Positions 55,402 to 63,447 of a stretch of 64,000 bases of DNA are shown in pieces; within the stretch, counting starts at the first letter, position 1; each line of letters opens with the position of its first letter. A program made the translations under genes and the position numbers. Origin of the DNA: an uncultured Flavobacteriaceae bacterium (GTDB lineage: Bacteria > Bacteroidota > Bacteroidia > Flavobacteriales > Flavobacteriaceae); the NCBI GenBank assembly GCA_937136455.1, contig CAKZOO010000179.1, forward strand, positions 62,001 through 126,000, written 5' to 3'. The notes below the pieces were generated by a model. That model worked only from the letters and a program-made list of their open reading frames with translations, was not told the origin of the DNA and did not search any database.

Positions 55402-56217
55402 ATGGAAAAATTACCAAAAATTGCAATGCCCGTAGTGATATTAATTATCATTGCTGTAATTGTGTTGTCTAAGTCAACACTAACAATAGGCTCAGGTCAA
55501 GCTGGAGTTCTATACAAAACCTTTGGGGGCGGTGTAGTTACAGATCAAGCTCCTTTAGGTGAAGGATTTCACGTGATTGCTCCTTGGAATAAAGTCTTTA
55601 TTTACGAAGTGAGACAACAGGAAATCTTTGAGAAAATGCAAGTATTATCTTCTAATGGATTGGAGATAAAATTAGACGCTTCTGCTTGGTTTCAACCCAA
55701 GTATGAATTTTTAGGGATGTTGCATCAATCAAAGGGTGAAAAATACGTTCAACGTGTTCTTATGCCAGCCATTCGTTCAGCAGCTCGTTCTGTTGTAGGT
55801 CGTTACACTCCTGAACAATTGTACTCTTCAAAGAGAGATGTCATTCAATCAGAAATTTTTGAAGAAACAAAGAAAATTGTAGATGATCAATTCATTCAGC
55901 TCAACGAAATACTAGTTAGAGATGTAACACTTCCTCCGACTATTAAAGAGGCGATTGAGCGTAAATTAAAGCAAGAACAAGAGTCTTTAGAATACGAATT
56001 TAGATTGGTTACTGCATCTAAAGAAGCTGAGAAACAAATTATCGAAGCACAAGGTAAGGCTGATGCCAACAGAATTTTATCAGCTTCACTAACGGATAAA
56101 ATCCTTCAAGATAAGGGAATAGAAGCTACTATTAAATTGTCAGAATCGCCAAATGCTAAGGTTATAGTTATTGGTTCAGGAGAATCTGGTCTTCCACTCA
56201 TTTTGGGAAATAATTAA
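55402..56217 (+). CDS. SPFH/prohibitin family membrane protein
   Basis: N-terminal TM; AGVLYKTFGGGVVTDQAPLGEGFHVIAPW; EAIERKLKQEQESLEYEFRLVTASKEAEKQIIEAQGKADA. Confidence 0.9.
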   Translation: MEKLPKIAMPVVILIIIAVIVLSKSTLTIGSGQAGVLYKTFGGGVVTDQAPLGEGFHVIAPWNKVFIYEVRQQEIFEKMQVLSSNGLEIKLDASAWFQPKYEFLGMLHQSKGEKYVQRVLMPAIRSAARSVVGRYTPEQLYSSKRDVIQSEIFEETKKIVDDQFIQLNEILVRDVTLPPTIKEAIERKLKQEQESLEYEFRLVTASKEAEKQIIEAQGKADANRILSASLTDKILQDKGIEATIKLSESPNAKVIVIGSGESGLPLILGNN

Positions 56218-56309
56218 TTGTAACGCTGATTTAACAAATTGTTATTTATAGATAAAAACTAATTTATTGTTTTAGGATTCTAAATAATATTGTTAATTTT
56301 ACGCCCACA

Positions 56310-56363
56310 ATGAAAAAGATACATTCACATCACCATATTGTAAACTACTTTCAAACGAGGTAG
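56310..56363 (+). CDS. hisL: Histidine operon leader peptide MKKIHSHHHIVNYFQTR
   Basis: 17-codon ORF with four His codons (CAT-TCA-CAT-CAC-CAT) immediately upstream of an attenuator and hisG. Confidence 0.9.
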   Translation: MKKIHSHHHIVNYFQTR

Positions 56364-56418
56364 CATATGGCTATGTATAATCATATTAGACCCGTTTGAG
56401 TAATCAAGCGGGTTTTTT
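56351..56418 (+). promoter_or_regulatory. his operon transcription attenuator (antiterminator/terminator)
   Basis: Terminator ACCCGTTTGA-gtaa-TCAAGCGGGT + TTTTTT (56390-56418); antiterminator TCAAACGaGGT (56351-56361) pairs with the same ACCCGTTTGA (56390-56399). Confidence 0.88.
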
Positions 56419-56430
56419 AATTTAAAGCGT

Positions 56431-57291
56431 ATGAATACAAAAATTAAAATTGCAGTTCAAAAAAGCGGTCGTCTAAACGAAGATTCTTTAGCATTATTAA
56501 AGGATGCAGGTATTTCTATTGACAATGGAAAAGATCAACTCAAGGCGAGTGCTCGCAACTTTGACTTAGAGGTTTTTTATCTCAGAAATGGAGATATTCC
56601 ACAATACCTCAGAGATGGGGTAGTGGATTGTGCAATTATCGGAGATAACCTTTTATTTGAAAAGGGAGATGATATTGAAGTAGTGGAACGACTTGGGTTT
56701 TCAAAATGCAGAGTTTCTTTAGCCTTACCTAAAGATGCTACTTACAACGGGATTGAGGATTTTAAAGGAAAGACCATTGCCACTTCATATCCAAATACCG
56801 TAAAGAAGTTTTTGGAAGCAAAGGGAATCACACCTGAGTTACACATCATCAACGGATCTGTTGAAATCGCTCCCAATATAGGACTAGCGGATGCTATTTG
56901 CGATATTGTTTCTTCTGGAAGTACACTCTTTAAAAACAATCTCGTAGAAGTAGAACACCTGATGGATTCTGAAGCAGTATTGGCTGTTTCTCCAAAAATA
57001 AGTGCAGAGGCACAAGCTTTATTAGACAACCTTCAATTTAGAATTCAATCAGTTCTAAGAGGAAGAAAGGCTAAATACGTACTTTTAAATGCTCCTAATG
57101 ACCAATTGGATGCTATCCTTAAAATCCTACCTGGAATGAAGAGTCCAACGGTATTGCCTTTAGCACAAGAAGGATGGAGTTCAGTTCACTCAGTGGTTGA
57201 TAAATACGCTTTCTGGGATGTGATTGATCAATTAAAGGCTCAGGGAGCTGAAGGAATCTTAGTTTGTTCAATTGAAAAAATGGTACTCTAA
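56431..57291 (+). CDS. hisG: ATP phosphoribosyltransferase
   Basis: KIAVQKSGRLNEDSLALLKDAGI, DCAIIGDNLLFE, ICDIVSSGSTLFKNNL. Confidence 0.96.
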   Translation: MNTKIKIAVQKSGRLNEDSLALLKDAGISIDNGKDQLKASARNFDLEVFYLRNGDIPQYLRDGVVDCAIIGDNLLFEKGDDIEVVERLGFSKCRVSLALPKDATYNGIEDFKGKTIATSYPNTVKKFLEAKGITPELHIINGSVEIAPNIGLADAICDIVSSGSTLFKNNLVEVEHLMDSEAVLAVSPKISAEAQALLDNLQFRIQSVLRGRKAKYVLLNAPNDQLDAILKILPGMKSPTVLPLAQEGWSSVHSVVDKYAFWDVIDQLKAQGAEGILVCSIEKMVL

Positions 57292-57293
57292 GC

Positions 57294-58595
57294 ATGCAAA
57301 ACTTTTACAATCCATCTAGATCTCAGTGGGAGTCGATACTAAAGCGACCTACTGCTACATTTGACGATGTTGAGTCTGTAGTGGTTGAAGTTTTTAATGC
57401 TGTTAAAACAAGTGGAGACCAGGCTTTAAAAGAGTATACCAAGAAATTTGACAGAACTGAAATTGACAATTTAACGGTTAGTTCTCAGGAGCTCACAGCA
57501 GCTGTAAATACACTTTCAAAGGAATTAAAAGAGGCTATTGATTTAGCATATGACAATATTTATAAATTTCACAAGGCACAACAAACTTCAAGAGTTGAAG
57601 TAGAAACCACCTCTGGTGTGGACTGCTGGCAAGAAAAAAGACCGATTCAAAAGGTTGGTTTTTATATTCCAGGAGGTTCAGCTCCACTCTTTTCAACTGT
57701 TTTGATGCTGGCGATCCCTGCTCAGATCGCTGGATGTAGTGAAGTAGTACTATGTACTCCTCCGACTAAAGAAGGAACGGTGCACCCTGCAGTGCTATAT
57801 GCTGCTAAGCGTTGTGGAATCCAAAACATCTACAAAGTAGGAGGGATTCAAGCAATTGCAGCGATGACCTATGGTACTGAGAGTATCACTAAGGTTTATA
57901 AAATATTTGGTCCCGGTAATCAATTTGTGACTTTGGCCAAGCAATATGCGACTACCCTAGGGGTTGCTATTGATATGCCTGCTGGACCTAGTGAACTCTT
58001 AATAGTAGGAGACAGCTCTGCAAATCCTGCATTTGTAGCTTCTGATTTACTATCTCAGGCAGAACACGGTCCAGATAGTCAGGTAATCTTAGTGAGTACC
58101 GATAAAAAACTTATTGATGATGTCTCTGTTGAAATTGAAAAGCAATTAGAGGAACTCCCAAGAAAAGAGATTGCTAAAAAGGCGATCGCCAATTCGAAGA
58201 TGATCTATTTTGATTCCAAACAGGATGCTGCTGATTGTATCGATGCGTACGGTCCTGAGCACTATATTATCTGTTGTGAAGAGGAACAATTCTATATTGA
58301 TGCCATTCACAATGCAGGATCGGTGTTTATTGGTAATTACACTCCTGAGAGTGCTGGTGATTACGCCTCTGGAACCAATCACACCTTACCGACCAATGGA
58401 TACACCAAGCAGTACAGTGGGGTGAATCTGGACAGTTTCTTGAAACAGATGACCTTTCAGAAGATCTCAGAAAAAGGAATTCAAGCCATAGGACCTGCAA
58501 TAGAACTCATGGCAGAGGAAGAAGGATTGCAGGCACATAAAAATGCAGTGACACTTCGTTTAAATCAATTAAAAGCGAATAAAGAATACAACTAA
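57294..58595 (+). CDS. hisD: Histidinol dehydrogenase
   Basis: VGFYIPGGSAPLFSTVLMLAIPAQIAGCSEVVLCTPP, IFGPGNQFVTLAKQ, DMPAGPSELLIV, LSQAEHGPDSQ. Confidence 0.97.
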   Translation: MQNFYNPSRSQWESILKRPTATFDDVESVVVEVFNAVKTSGDQALKEYTKKFDRTEIDNLTVSSQELTAAVNTLSKELKEAIDLAYDNIYKFHKAQQTSRVEVETTSGVDCWQEKRPIQKVGFYIPGGSAPLFSTVLMLAIPAQIAGCSEVVLCTPPTKEGTVHPAVLYAAKRCGIQNIYKVGGIQAIAAMTYGTESITKVYKIFGPGNQFVTLAKQYATTLGVAIDMPAGPSELLIVGDSSANPAFVASDLLSQAEHGPDSQVILVSTDKKLIDDVSVEIEKQLEELPRKEIAKKAIANSKMIYFDSKQDAADCIDAYGPEHYIICCEEEQFYIDAIHNAGSVFIGNYTPESAGDYASGTNHTLPTNGYTKQYSGVNLDSFLKQMTFQKISEKGIQAIGPAIELMAEEEGLQAHKNAVTLRLNQLKANKEYN

Positions 58596-59641
58596 TGAGT
58601 GGATTTGAACTCAATAATTTGTTACGAGAGAACATCAAGTCGATTAAGGCTTACTCTTCTGCTAGAGATGAATACGTCTCTAATGGAAGTGAGATGATCT
58701 TTTTAGATGCTAATGAAAACCCTTATGAAAATGGGGTGAATCGCTATCCAGATCCACTTCAGCGATCTTTAAAAGAGGAACTCTCAAAGATAAAGAGAAT
58801 CCCAACGGATCAAATTCTCCTTGGAAATGGTTCCGATGAAGTATTGGATTTGATCTTTAGAGCTTTTTGTGAGCCTGGTAAGGATGCAGTTATGACACTG
58901 CCGCCTACCTATGGAATGTATCAGGTATTGGCAGATCTCAATGCAGTACAAGTACAGCAGATTCCACTGACTGAAGATTTTTTAATCGATACAGAAATAG
59001 TACTCAACAATCTTAAAGATCAAAAACTGCTCTTTGTTTGTTCCCCTAACAACCCATCGGGAAATTTATTGCAAGAAGCAGGGATTGAGGTCATCCTAAA
59101 CAATTTTAAGGGTATTGTAGTAGTCGATGAGGCTTATATTGATTTTACAGATGCAAAATCTTGGATTCATAGACTTGATGAGTATCCAAATCTGATCGTC
59201 ACTCAAACCCTGTCTAAGGCTTATGGTTTGGCGGGAATTCGATTGGGGATGTTATTCGCAAGTAAAGAAATTGTCAGTGTTTTAAACAAGATCAAACCCC
59301 CTTACAATGTCAATGAGCTTACCCAAGAACGTGCCTTAGAGCGTGTTTTAGCCAATGATCAGGTGCTGGTAGAAGTACAATCGATCATCGAAAGTAGAAA
59401 AGCACTTATCGAAGCTTTAAAAGAGGTATCTTTTGTCGAGCACATCTTTCCATCAGATGCCAATTTTGTACTAGCTCGAGTGGATGATGTCACCAAACGT
59501 TACAATCAATTATTAGAAAAAGGAATAGTCGTTAGAAATCGATCGACTCAATTACACTGTGAAAATTCTCTTCGTTTTACCGTTGGTACTACCGAGGAAA
59601 ACAAGGAACTTATCCGTGTATTAAAAACGATAGAATCATGA
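58595..59641 (+). CDS. hisC: Histidinol-phosphate aminotransferase
   Basis: [51 protein letters not shown]. Confidence 0.96.
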
Positions 59642-60774
59642 AAAAAGTACTCTTTATCGATAGAGACGGAACACTTATAATCGAACCAAAGGACGATCCT
59701 CAAATCGATGCTTTTGAAAAGGTAAGTTTTTATCCAAAGGCAATTGCTACCATGGCTCAAATAGCAAAACTCAATGCTTTTGAACTTGTGATGGTATCCA
59801 ATCAAGATGGATTGGGAACCGATTCTTTTCCAGAAGAGACCTTTTGGCCGGTTCAAAACTTTATCGTAGATACCTTTAAAAGTGAAGGGGTTGAGTTTAG
59901 TGAAATCGTACTCGATAGAACCTTTGCATCGGATAATGCACCTACTCGAAAGCCTGGTACAGCATTACTTACTAAGTATATGGACACAACTGTATACGAC
60001 TTAGAAAATTCCTATGTAATTGGAGATCGTATTACTGATGTGGCACTTGCAAAGAATTTAGGTTGTAAGGCGATCTATATTAATTCAGGGAATCAATTGG
60101 GAATTGAAGAAGTTACTACCTATGGTGATTTAAATCCTACCATTGCTCTTGAGAGCACTGATTGGTCAACGATTTATGCCTTTTTAACCACAGGAGCACG
60201 AACTGCTCAAGTTGTTCGTACGACCAAAGAGACGGATATCAAGATTTATTTGGATCTCAATGGAGTAGGAAAGGGAACAATCAATACTGGAATTTCCTTT
60301 TTTGATCATATGTTGGATCAACTCTCCAAACACGGACAGGTCGATCTCAGTATTGAAGTTAAAGGCGATTTAGAAGTCGATGAGCACCATACGATTGAGG
60401 ATACAGCTATTGCACTTGGAGAAGCATTTGCAAAGGCTCTTGGTTCCAAACTCGGAATTGAACGCTATGGATTTTGTTTGCCTATGGATGACTGCTTAGC
60501 TCAAGTAGCCATTGATTTTGGTGGTAGAAACTGGTTGGAATGGGATGCGGAATTTAAACGTGAAATGGTAGGAAAAATGCCTACTGAAATGTTCTTCCAC
60601 TTTTTTAAATCCTTTAGCGATGGAGCAAAAGCTAATTTAAATATCAAAGCAGAAGGGGTGAATGAACACCACAAGATAGAAGCCATCTTTAAGGCCTTTG
60701 CCAAGGCGATTAAAATGGCTATTAAGCAAGATCCAGATAAAATGGTACTGCCTTCAACAAAAGGAATGTTATAA
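59638..60774 (+). CDS. hisB: Bifunctional histidinol-phosphatase / imidazoleglycerol-phosphate dehydratase
   Basis: HAD motif [13 protein letters not shown] motifs [48 protein letters not shown]. Confidence 0.96.
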
Positions 60775-61358
60775 TGAAATTAGTCATCATCGATTACGGA
60801 GCTGGGAACATTAAGAGTATCCAATTTGCATTTGAGCGGTTGGGAGTGCACGCAGTGCTCAGCAGTGATGCCATAGAAATACAAGCAGCTGATAAGGTGA
60901 TCTTTCCAGGAGTAGGAGCGGCAGGTGCTGCCATGAAAATGCTCAAGGATAAAAATTTAGACACCTTGATTCCAAAACTCACTCAACCTGTTTTGGGGAT
61001 TTGCTTGGGATTGCAACTCATGTGTCGCTACAGTGAAGAAGATCACACCCCAGGATTAGGTATTTTTGATGTAGATGTAAAGCGTTTTGATACTTCCAAG
61101 GTCAAGGTACCACAAATTGGTTGGAATGCCATCAGTAGTTTGAAAACGGAGTTATTTGAAGGAGTTGAAGAAGACTCCTATATCTATATGGTACACTCGT
61201 TTTTTGTGCCAAAATGCGATCAAACTATAGCAGAAGCAACCTATGATGGAGCCTATAGTGCAGCGCTTAGTCGTGACAATTTTTACGCTACTCAATTTCA
61301 CCCAGAAAAGAGCAGCAGTGTAGGAGAACAAATCTTAAAGAACTTTTTAGCGATCTAA
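60774..61358 (+). CDS. hisH: Imidazole glycerol phosphate synthase subunit HisH
   Basis: [42 protein letters not shown]. Confidence 0.96.
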
Positions 61359-62086
61359 TGAGAATTATACCAGCAATTGATATTATCGACGGAAAATGTG
61401 TTCGACTCTCAAAAGGAGATTACGACACCAAAAAAATCTATAATGAAAACCCCTTAGAAGTTGCCAAAGAGTTTGAGGCTCACGGTATTGAATCATTGCA
61501 TTTAGTGGACTTAGACGGCGCTAAATCACAACATATTGTAAACTACAAGGTCTTGGAGCAAATTGCTTCTCAAACATCCTTAAAAGTTGATTTTGGTGGT
61601 GGTATTAAATCCGAAGAGGATATTCGTGTGGCATTTGATTCAGGAGCCAATCAAATCACTGGAGGAAGTATTGCGGTAAAGAATCCAACGATTTTTGAAT
61701 CTTGGTTATCTCATTACGGATCTGATAAAATTATCTTAGGTGCTGATGCTCAAAATGAAAAGGTAGCTGTATCAGGATGGTTAGAAGAATCAAAAGAAGA
61801 CTTACTTCCTTTTATTAAGAGTTATGTAGCCAAGGGAGTGCGTTATATCATCTGTACAGATATTTCAAAAGACGGAATGTTAGAAGGTCCTTCTTTTGAT
61901 TTGTACCAAAAAATATTGGCTGATAATACCTACTCAAATATTAAACTCATTGCCAGTGGTGGTATTTCTACCTTTGAGGAGTTACCTAGGCTTCAGGAAT
62001 TGGGATGTGAAGGAACCATTATCGGTAAAGCAATCTATGAAAACAGGATTAGCTTAAAGCAATTAGAACAATTTATAATTAGTTAA
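61358..62086 (+). CDS. hisA: ProFAR isomerase
   Basis: [49 protein letters not shown]. Confidence 0.96.
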
Positions 62087-62087
62087 G

Positions 62088-62843
62088 ATGCTCAGTAAGA
62101 GAATAATACCTTGTTTGGATATCAAGAACGGAAGAACGGTTAAGGGCGTCAACTTTGTAGCACTGAGAGATGCAGGGGATCCTGTAGAGCTCGCAGCACA
62201 ATATGCTAAAACTGGAGCTGATGAGCTGGTGTTTTTAGATATTACAGCCACTGAAGAAGCAAGAGCAACTCTAGCTAATTTAGTACACGATGTAGCAGAA
62301 GCCATCAATATTCCTTTTACCGTCGGAGGAGGAATTCGTTCTGTAGAAGATGTAGACATCTTACTCAAGAATGGTGCAGATAAAATATCCATCAATTCCT
62401 CAGCCGTTCGAAATCCACAACTCATTAACGATTTATCGAGTAAATTTGGATCTCAATGTGTGGTAGTTGCTATCGATGCTAAAGAAATAGATGGACAGTG
62501 GAAGGTGCACTTAGTAGGAGGAAAGGTACCTACAGAGCTCGATTTATTTGAGTGGGCTCAAGAAGTGGAACAAAGAGGTGCAGGAGAAATTCTCTTTACC
62601 TCAATGGATCACGATGGAACCAAAGACGGTTTTGCAAATAAGGCCTTAGCTAAGATGTGTGAACTGGTCAATATTCCAGTAATCGCCTCTGGAGGAGCTG
62701 GAAAAAAAGAACATTTCATCGATGTTTTTAAGGAAGGAAAAGCAGATGCAGCTTTGGCTGCAAGTGTTTTTCACTTTGGAGAAATTCCAATTCCAGAATT
62801 AAAAAATGATTTAAAACAAGCGGGTATAAGAGTTCGCATATAA
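62088..62843 (+). CDS. hisF: Imidazole glycerol phosphate synthase subunit HisF
   Basis: [45 protein letters not shown]. Confidence 0.97.
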
Positions 62844-62850
62844 AAAAGCC

Positions 62851-63447
62851 ATGAATATAGATTTTTCAAAAACAGAAGGAGGATTAGTTCCAGCGATTGT
62901 TCAAGACGCCATCACTAAAAACGTTTTGATGTTGGGATATATGAACAAAGAAGCAGTTGAGAAGACCTTAGAAACCAAAAAGGTTACGTTTTATTCACGT
63001 TCTAAAAATCGTTTGTGGACTAAAGGAGAAGAGAGTGGAAATTTCTTAAACCTAGTTTCGATGTCAGTAGATTGTGATCAGGACACCCTACTCATTAAAG
63101 CGAATCCTGTAGGTCCTACTTGTCACAAGGGTACTGATACCTGCTGGGCTGAAGAAAACACAGAGTCTTATGGTTTTATCTCTGAATTAGAAGCTGTTAT
63201 CACTGAACGTATTGCTAATAAAGACACGGCAAAGAGCTATGTCGCTTCGCTTTTTGATAAAGGAATAAACAAAGTAGCACAAAAAGTAGGTGAAGAGGCC
63301 GTTGAAGTGGTTATCGAAGCAATGGATAACAACGACCAACTCTTCAAAGAAGAGTCAGCAGATCTTTTGTTTCACTATCTGATGTTGCTTCAAGCGAAAG
63401 GATATACCCTAAAAGATATAGTAGCGGTCTTAAAGTCGAGACACTAA
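62851..63447 (+). CDS. hisIE: Bifunctional phosphoribosyl-AMP cyclohydrolase / phosphoribosyl-ATP pyrophosphatase
   Basis: LMLGYMNKEAVEKTLETKKVTFYSRSKNRLWTKGEESGN; KVGEEAVEVVIEA, ESADLLFHYLMLL. Confidence 0.96.
   Translation: MNIDFSKTEGGLVPAIVQDAITKNVLMLGYMNKEAVEKTLETKKVTFYSRSKNRLWTKGEESGNFLNLVSMSVDCDQDTLLIKANPVGPTCHKGTDTCWAEENTESYGFISELEAVITERIANKDTAKSYVASLFDKGINKVAQKVGEEAVEVVIEAMDNNDQLFKEESADLLFHYLMLLQAKGYTLKDIVAVLKSRH

Follow-up and report, generated by a model that had tools for sequence, protein, structure and literature searches.

Attenuation is a textbook mechanism that was worked out in E. coli, and a 2004 survey of his attenuators by Vitreschak et al. reportedly lists the Bacteroidetes/Chlorobi as well. 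The his attenuators predicted in some Firmicutes combine alternative hairpins with leader peptides in which His codons number three to five (PMC9413887). In the trp attenuator rnTrpL/peTrpL of Sinorhizobium meliloti, the leader ORF starts at the 5′ end of the RNA (PMC7298713). Within the Flavobacteriaceae, a 2021 transcriptome study of F. psychrophilum describes a structured 5′ element of hisG that is conserved in other genera of the family and gives no Rfam hits, and it speaks of 'strong clues' for leader-peptide attenuation at amino-acid operons (PMC9723704).

The locus considered here lies in a window of 64,000 nucleotides from an uncultured Flavobacteriaceae bacterium. A first-pass annotation of this DNA had proposed a histidine-dependent attenuator upstream of hisG, and comparison with related sequences supports that proposal. 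The element is very probably a ribosome-mediated transcription attenuator that adjusts expression of the entire hisGDCBHAF(IE) operon to how much charged histidyl-tRNA is available. Its parts, and the complete operon downstream of it, are as follows.

56294..56301, forward strand: promoter -7 box TAATTTTA (Bacteroidota consensus TAnnTTTG), with a predicted transcription start near 56306; from sequence
56310..56363, forward strand: leader peptide ORF, encoding MKKIHSHHHIVNYFQTR; from sequence and counterpart His-rich ORFs in relatives
56322..56336, forward strand: control codons, four His in five (CAT TCA CAT CAC CAT); from sequence, the His run being kept in relatives
56351..56361, forward strand: region 2, the 5′ arm of the antiterminator, TCAAACGAGGT, overlapping the last leader codons; from pairing with region 3 over 32 sequences
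56365..56386, forward strand: segment between regions 2 and 3, in which an ATATG/CATAT hairpin is possible inside the antiterminator; from folding
56390..56399, forward strand: region 3, ACCCGTTTGA, common to antiterminator and terminator; from alignment and folding
56404..56413, forward strand: region 4, TCAAGCGGGT, the 3′ arm of the intrinsic terminator; from pairing with region 3 over 32 sequences
56413..56418, forward strand: T-run of the intrinsic terminator; from sequence, kept in relatives
56431..57291, forward strand: hisG, ATP phosphoribosyltransferase, long form (TIGR00070, E 2.7e-53; TIGR03455)
57294..58595, forward strand: hisD (TIGR00069, E 2.1e-158)
58595..59641, forward strand: hisC (TIGR01141, E 1.6e-104)
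59638..60774, forward strand: hisB, bifunctional (NF003937, E 3.6e-160)
60774..61358, forward strand: hisH (TIGR01855, E 1.7e-61)
61358..62086, forward strand: hisA (TIGR00007, E 3.3e-76)
62088..62843, forward strand: hisF (TIGR00735, E 2.4e-106)
62851..63447, forward strand: hisIE, bifunctional (NF002747, E 2.6e-83)

What precedes the hisG ATG at 56431 is a short leader ORF in which codons for the operon's own amino acid stand in tandem, followed by an intrinsic terminator with a 10-bp stem, a 4-nt loop and the T-run. The ORF has 17 codons, four of which are His (56322-24, 56328-30, 56331-33 and 56334-36), and its stop codon is at 56361. Region 2 nearly repeats region 4, with one A inserted; each is complementary to region 3, and the antiterminator arm can therefore compete for the 5′ arm of the terminator from a position that a stalled ribosome would expose and a terminating one would cover. 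The letters and coordinates that the first-pass annotation gave for the His-rich ORF, for the 2:3 antiterminator and 3:4 terminator, and for the promoter-like box (which reads TAATTTTA) all agree with the sequence.

We gathered hisG upstream regions from genome collections at the family, class and phylum level; the 132 upstream regions of relatives used for counting represent mostly the family and the class. To count as a leader, a short ORF had to have three or more His codons within seven; a second count required a terminator after it. By this measure, 120 of the 132 regions contain a His-rich leader ORF and 108 contain a leader with a terminator. The reverse strands of the same regions gave 4 and 0, respectively, and dinucleotide shuffling gave leaders in 21/660 and leaders with terminators in 0/660. 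Moreover, a covariance model of the element, built from 32 Flavobacteriaceae sequences, matches 259 of the 301 family genomes searched; hisG was found in 256 of the same 301, and the two sets differ in seven genomes. Two of these (G207 and G241) have hisG without a model match, and direct reading reveals His leaders below the threshold; the other five have a match without hisG, and comprise G027 with a broken hisG, G005 with a borderline match, and three incomplete genomes. In 62/62 genomes compared, hisG and the element share a strand, and the element is 11-162 nt upstream. An alignment of hisG upstream regions, which the first-pass annotation had suggested as a check, finds the His codons and the competing regions 2-4 conserved in relatives: they occur in essentially every hisG-bearing Flavobacteriaceae genome sampled, with letters rewritten across Bacteroidia. 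In other classes of the phylum, a His-rich ORF precedes hisG in 17/30 genomes by the ORF criterion alone, several of these ORFs resembling attenuator leaders, and no upstream His leader was found for the most diverged hisG among these 30 genomes.

Several individual loci depart from the common arrangement. In G027, the his attenuator is kept before a broken hisG of which only the protein start is recognisable (L173, G027:C11:14399-14529); no other hisG match was found in this genome, which is 99% complete, and its his operon is decaying. Second model matches within single genomes are mostly weak or correspond to the same hairpin read on the other strand, and one genome has a second strong copy of the element, on a short locus (L180, G141:C126:23065-23194; E 5.8e-18). 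In five loci whose hisG is at 47-49% identity (L128-L132), the His codons of the leader form two clusters, as in MNGYKQHHLSLHHHHHVVIR. A terminator was sought at these five by a simple stem criterion and not found, and it is possible that they use another form of hairpin or control translation.

The run of His codons is conserved across relatives, and the other leader codons vary. In two relatives (L025 and L044), TAG replaces the CAG codon of the others and the leader peptide is shorter. Region 2 is nearly intact in these two sequences, where it begins at the stop codon, and its retention despite the early stop implies a constraint on the RNA rather than on the peptide.

Pairing between the competing regions is conserved as well. 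Over the 32 Flavobacteriaceae sequences, 3:4 is paired in 100% of cells, including one A-U to G-C change, well above slid controls, and 2:3 is paired in 96.9% of cells versus 22-59% when slid by 1-3 columns. Compensatory changes are few within the family, where regions 2-4 hardly vary, and because this variation is too small to yield more than pairing percentages, we turned to a comparison across families. There the letters are rewritten: for example, where region 3 is GGGCTTACC and region 4 is GGTAAGCCC, region 2 follows as GGGTAAGC. Region 2 segments of type A pair at -10.1 kcal/mol with A arms versus -6.8 with B arms, and those of type B at -11.2 kcal/mol with B arms versus -7.9 with A arms. 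Each type thus pairs clearly better with arms of its own type, and regions 2, 3 and 4 change together between families. In relatives, region 2 follows the last His codon by a median of 13 nt, a spacing that would fit the edge of a stalled ribosome, and the terminator arm follows region 2 by a median of 31 nt. With the His codons and regions 2-4 conserved at the expected spacing, the 2:3 / 3:4 switch that the first-pass annotation had described is well supported.

The leader RNA is predicted to fold much more stably than shuffled versions (z -3.95, 0/200). When folding extends only to the end of region 3, P(2:3) in this genome is 0.97 whichever His codon the stalled ribosome occupies, and the ATATG/CATAT hairpin has P 0.96; with the ribosome at the stop codon, P(2:3) is 0 and region 3 is free, and 3:4 forms. 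Across 110 relatives, region 3 is engaged upstream at 0.60 in the stalled state versus 0.14 with the ribosome at the stop. The excess is moderate, as a shuffled region 3 arm in the stalled state still reaches 0.44 versus the real 0.60. The segments of relatives that match the stretch between regions 2 and 3 are more stable than shuffles, with a mean z of -1.2. Folding of both conformers was another of the checks suggested beforehand: at equilibrium the terminator beats the antiterminator in every folded state (about -18 versus -14 kcal/mol). Since the terminator is the stabler structure in all states once region 4 has been made, the switch needs co-transcriptional, kinetic trapping of 2:3.

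From these features we infer a sequence of events in which transcription would begin some 4 nt ahead of the leader ORF, with ribosome loading at or close to the RNA 5′ end. With ample histidine, translation would proceed to the stop codon at 56361 and the ribosome would cover region 2, so that 3:4 would pair and RNA polymerase would stop at the T-run. Under histidine shortage, the ribosome would stall in the His codons, and region 2, which lies about 13 nt beyond the last of these, would remain free to capture region 3 ahead of the synthesis of region 4, allowing transcription into hisG. The 2:3 structure would then act as a kinetic trap against the stabler terminator.

The proposed start of transcription draws on the spacing of the promoter box, which predicts a 5′UTR of 4 nt before the leader ATG. 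Among relatives, a TAnnTTT core lies no more than 60 nt from the leader ATG in 92 of 105 cases, most often with a gap of 4-12 nt upstream (about 1.8 would be expected in gaps 3-9), and such a core precedes hisG itself in only 24/110. The box of F. psychrophilum occupies -12 to -5 according to the transcriptome study, which also gives a median 5′UTR of 24 nt among genes with mapped starts and 5.5% leaderless mRNAs (PMC9723704). If the same position applies, predicted 5′UTRs would be about 0-8 nt in about half of the relatives. The first-pass annotation had called the almost leaderless start unusual; this holds in comparison with enterobacteria, but, as predicted from box spacing, such a start would be common for this element in the group.

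Two other accounts of the hairpin would dispense with the peptide as a sensor. Terminators between two co-directional genes are common, and the upstream ORF (55402-56217) ends 172 nt before region 3, so the hairpin might be a mere terminator of that gene and the His ORF a product of chance. This is very improbable given that the leader ORF, region 2 and the terminator accompany hisG in hundreds of genomes, that a leader with a terminator did not arise once in the 660 shuffles, and that a promoter-like box stands between the upstream gene and the hairpin. It is just as improbable that a T-box, a riboswitch or an RNA-binding protein controls the terminator. In other phyla, T-boxes or the HisR repressor do regulate his genes (PMC9413887), but here Rfam gave no family match at gathering or relaxed thresholds, a sensitive search gave none above the gathering score of any family, and RF00514 (His_leader) itself found no match at its gathering threshold, nor at E up to 5 on 55900-56700. 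Conservation of the His run amid varying leader codons, and the location of region 2 at ribosome-edge distance, likewise point to the translated peptide as the sensor, and we retain the attenuator as the preferred reading.

A further question is whether the attenuator follows the full classical scheme, in which a functional 1:2 stem would shut the operon when the leader is untranslated. The first-pass annotation had claimed such a stem between CCATAT in the His codons and ATATGG downstream. The letters are present, and when the complete leader RNA from this genome is folded untranslated the stem forms with P 0.91 around an inner CTACTTT/GAGGTAG hairpin, but conservation fails. Over the 32 sequences the CCATAT/ATATGG pairing fills 45.8% of cells, below the levels obtained with slides of -1, -2 and -3 columns (towards the 5′ end), and its centre is paired in only 2-4/32. 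The inner stem is paired in 67.9% of cells, no better than shuffled, and before region 3 appears, pairing of region 2 is 0.64 versus 0.59 with shuffled flanks, a slight excess. Because neither the proposed stem nor the inner one is conserved, a two-state scheme is better supported than a full 1:2 / 2:3 / 3:4 scheme, and a functional 1:2 stem is unlikely. The ribosome-free RNA folded up to region 3 likewise favours 2:3, and an untranslated leader might therefore read through. A search of the relatives' leaders for a conserved 1:2 stem that would free 3:4 in the untranslated leader, and so prevent such read-through, found none.

The genome that carries this his attenuator also has a Trp version upstream of trpE (L217, G000:C66, 147729-148166, minus strand). 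Its leader has a GTG start, (M/V)NKNYTNTKWWWNSQS with three tandem TGG codons, and a terminator AAGGCTTGTC/GACAGGCCTT stands between it and trpE. The GTG lies 4 nt after a TATCTTTG box, and the predicted transcription start is the GTG itself. Upstream of ilvD, pheA and two homoserine dehydrogenase genes of this genome, no clear attenuator was found.

We suggest tentatively that the his attenuator of Bacteroidota may be a distinct compact form, leaderless or nearly so and without a 1:2 stem, in which the last peptide codons contain region 2, a version of region 4 weakened by a bulge. If this is true, coupling of transcription and translation would begin at the very 5′ end of the RNA, and a leader left untranslated would, unlike in E. 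coli, not be shut off. These bacteria mostly initiate translation without Shine-Dalgarno sites, and the element could be a ready probe of transcription-translation coupling under such initiation. Although almost every member of one large family has such a his attenuator and it is widespread in the phylum, the RNA family library contains nothing that matches it, and a covariance model built on these sequences could become an entry there.

In its general design the element is like the enterobacterial his leader (RF00514), with a peptide rich in His codons, an antiterminator opposed to a terminator, and a position before hisG and the full his operon. It differs from that leader in that the ORF of 17 codons includes four for His, that the terminator comes only about 110 nt after the start, that the 5′UTR is predicted to be 4 nt and that no 1:2 stem is conserved. 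The predicted Firmicutes his attenuators have similar leader peptides and hairpins in a different phylum (PMC9413887). The rnTrpL/peTrpL attenuator of S. meliloti is leaderless, as the his leader is predicted nearly to be; it concerns Trp rather than His, belongs to another phylum and has a known rather than a predicted 5′ end (PMC7298713). The hisG element of F. psychrophilum comes from the same family and precedes the same gene, and the main text of that study describes it without a His peptide, competing stems or distribution (PMC9723704). Hence, the kind of switch is known and the element itself probably is too; what the present comparison of sequences adds is its anatomy, its ubiquity and its predicted near-leaderless start.
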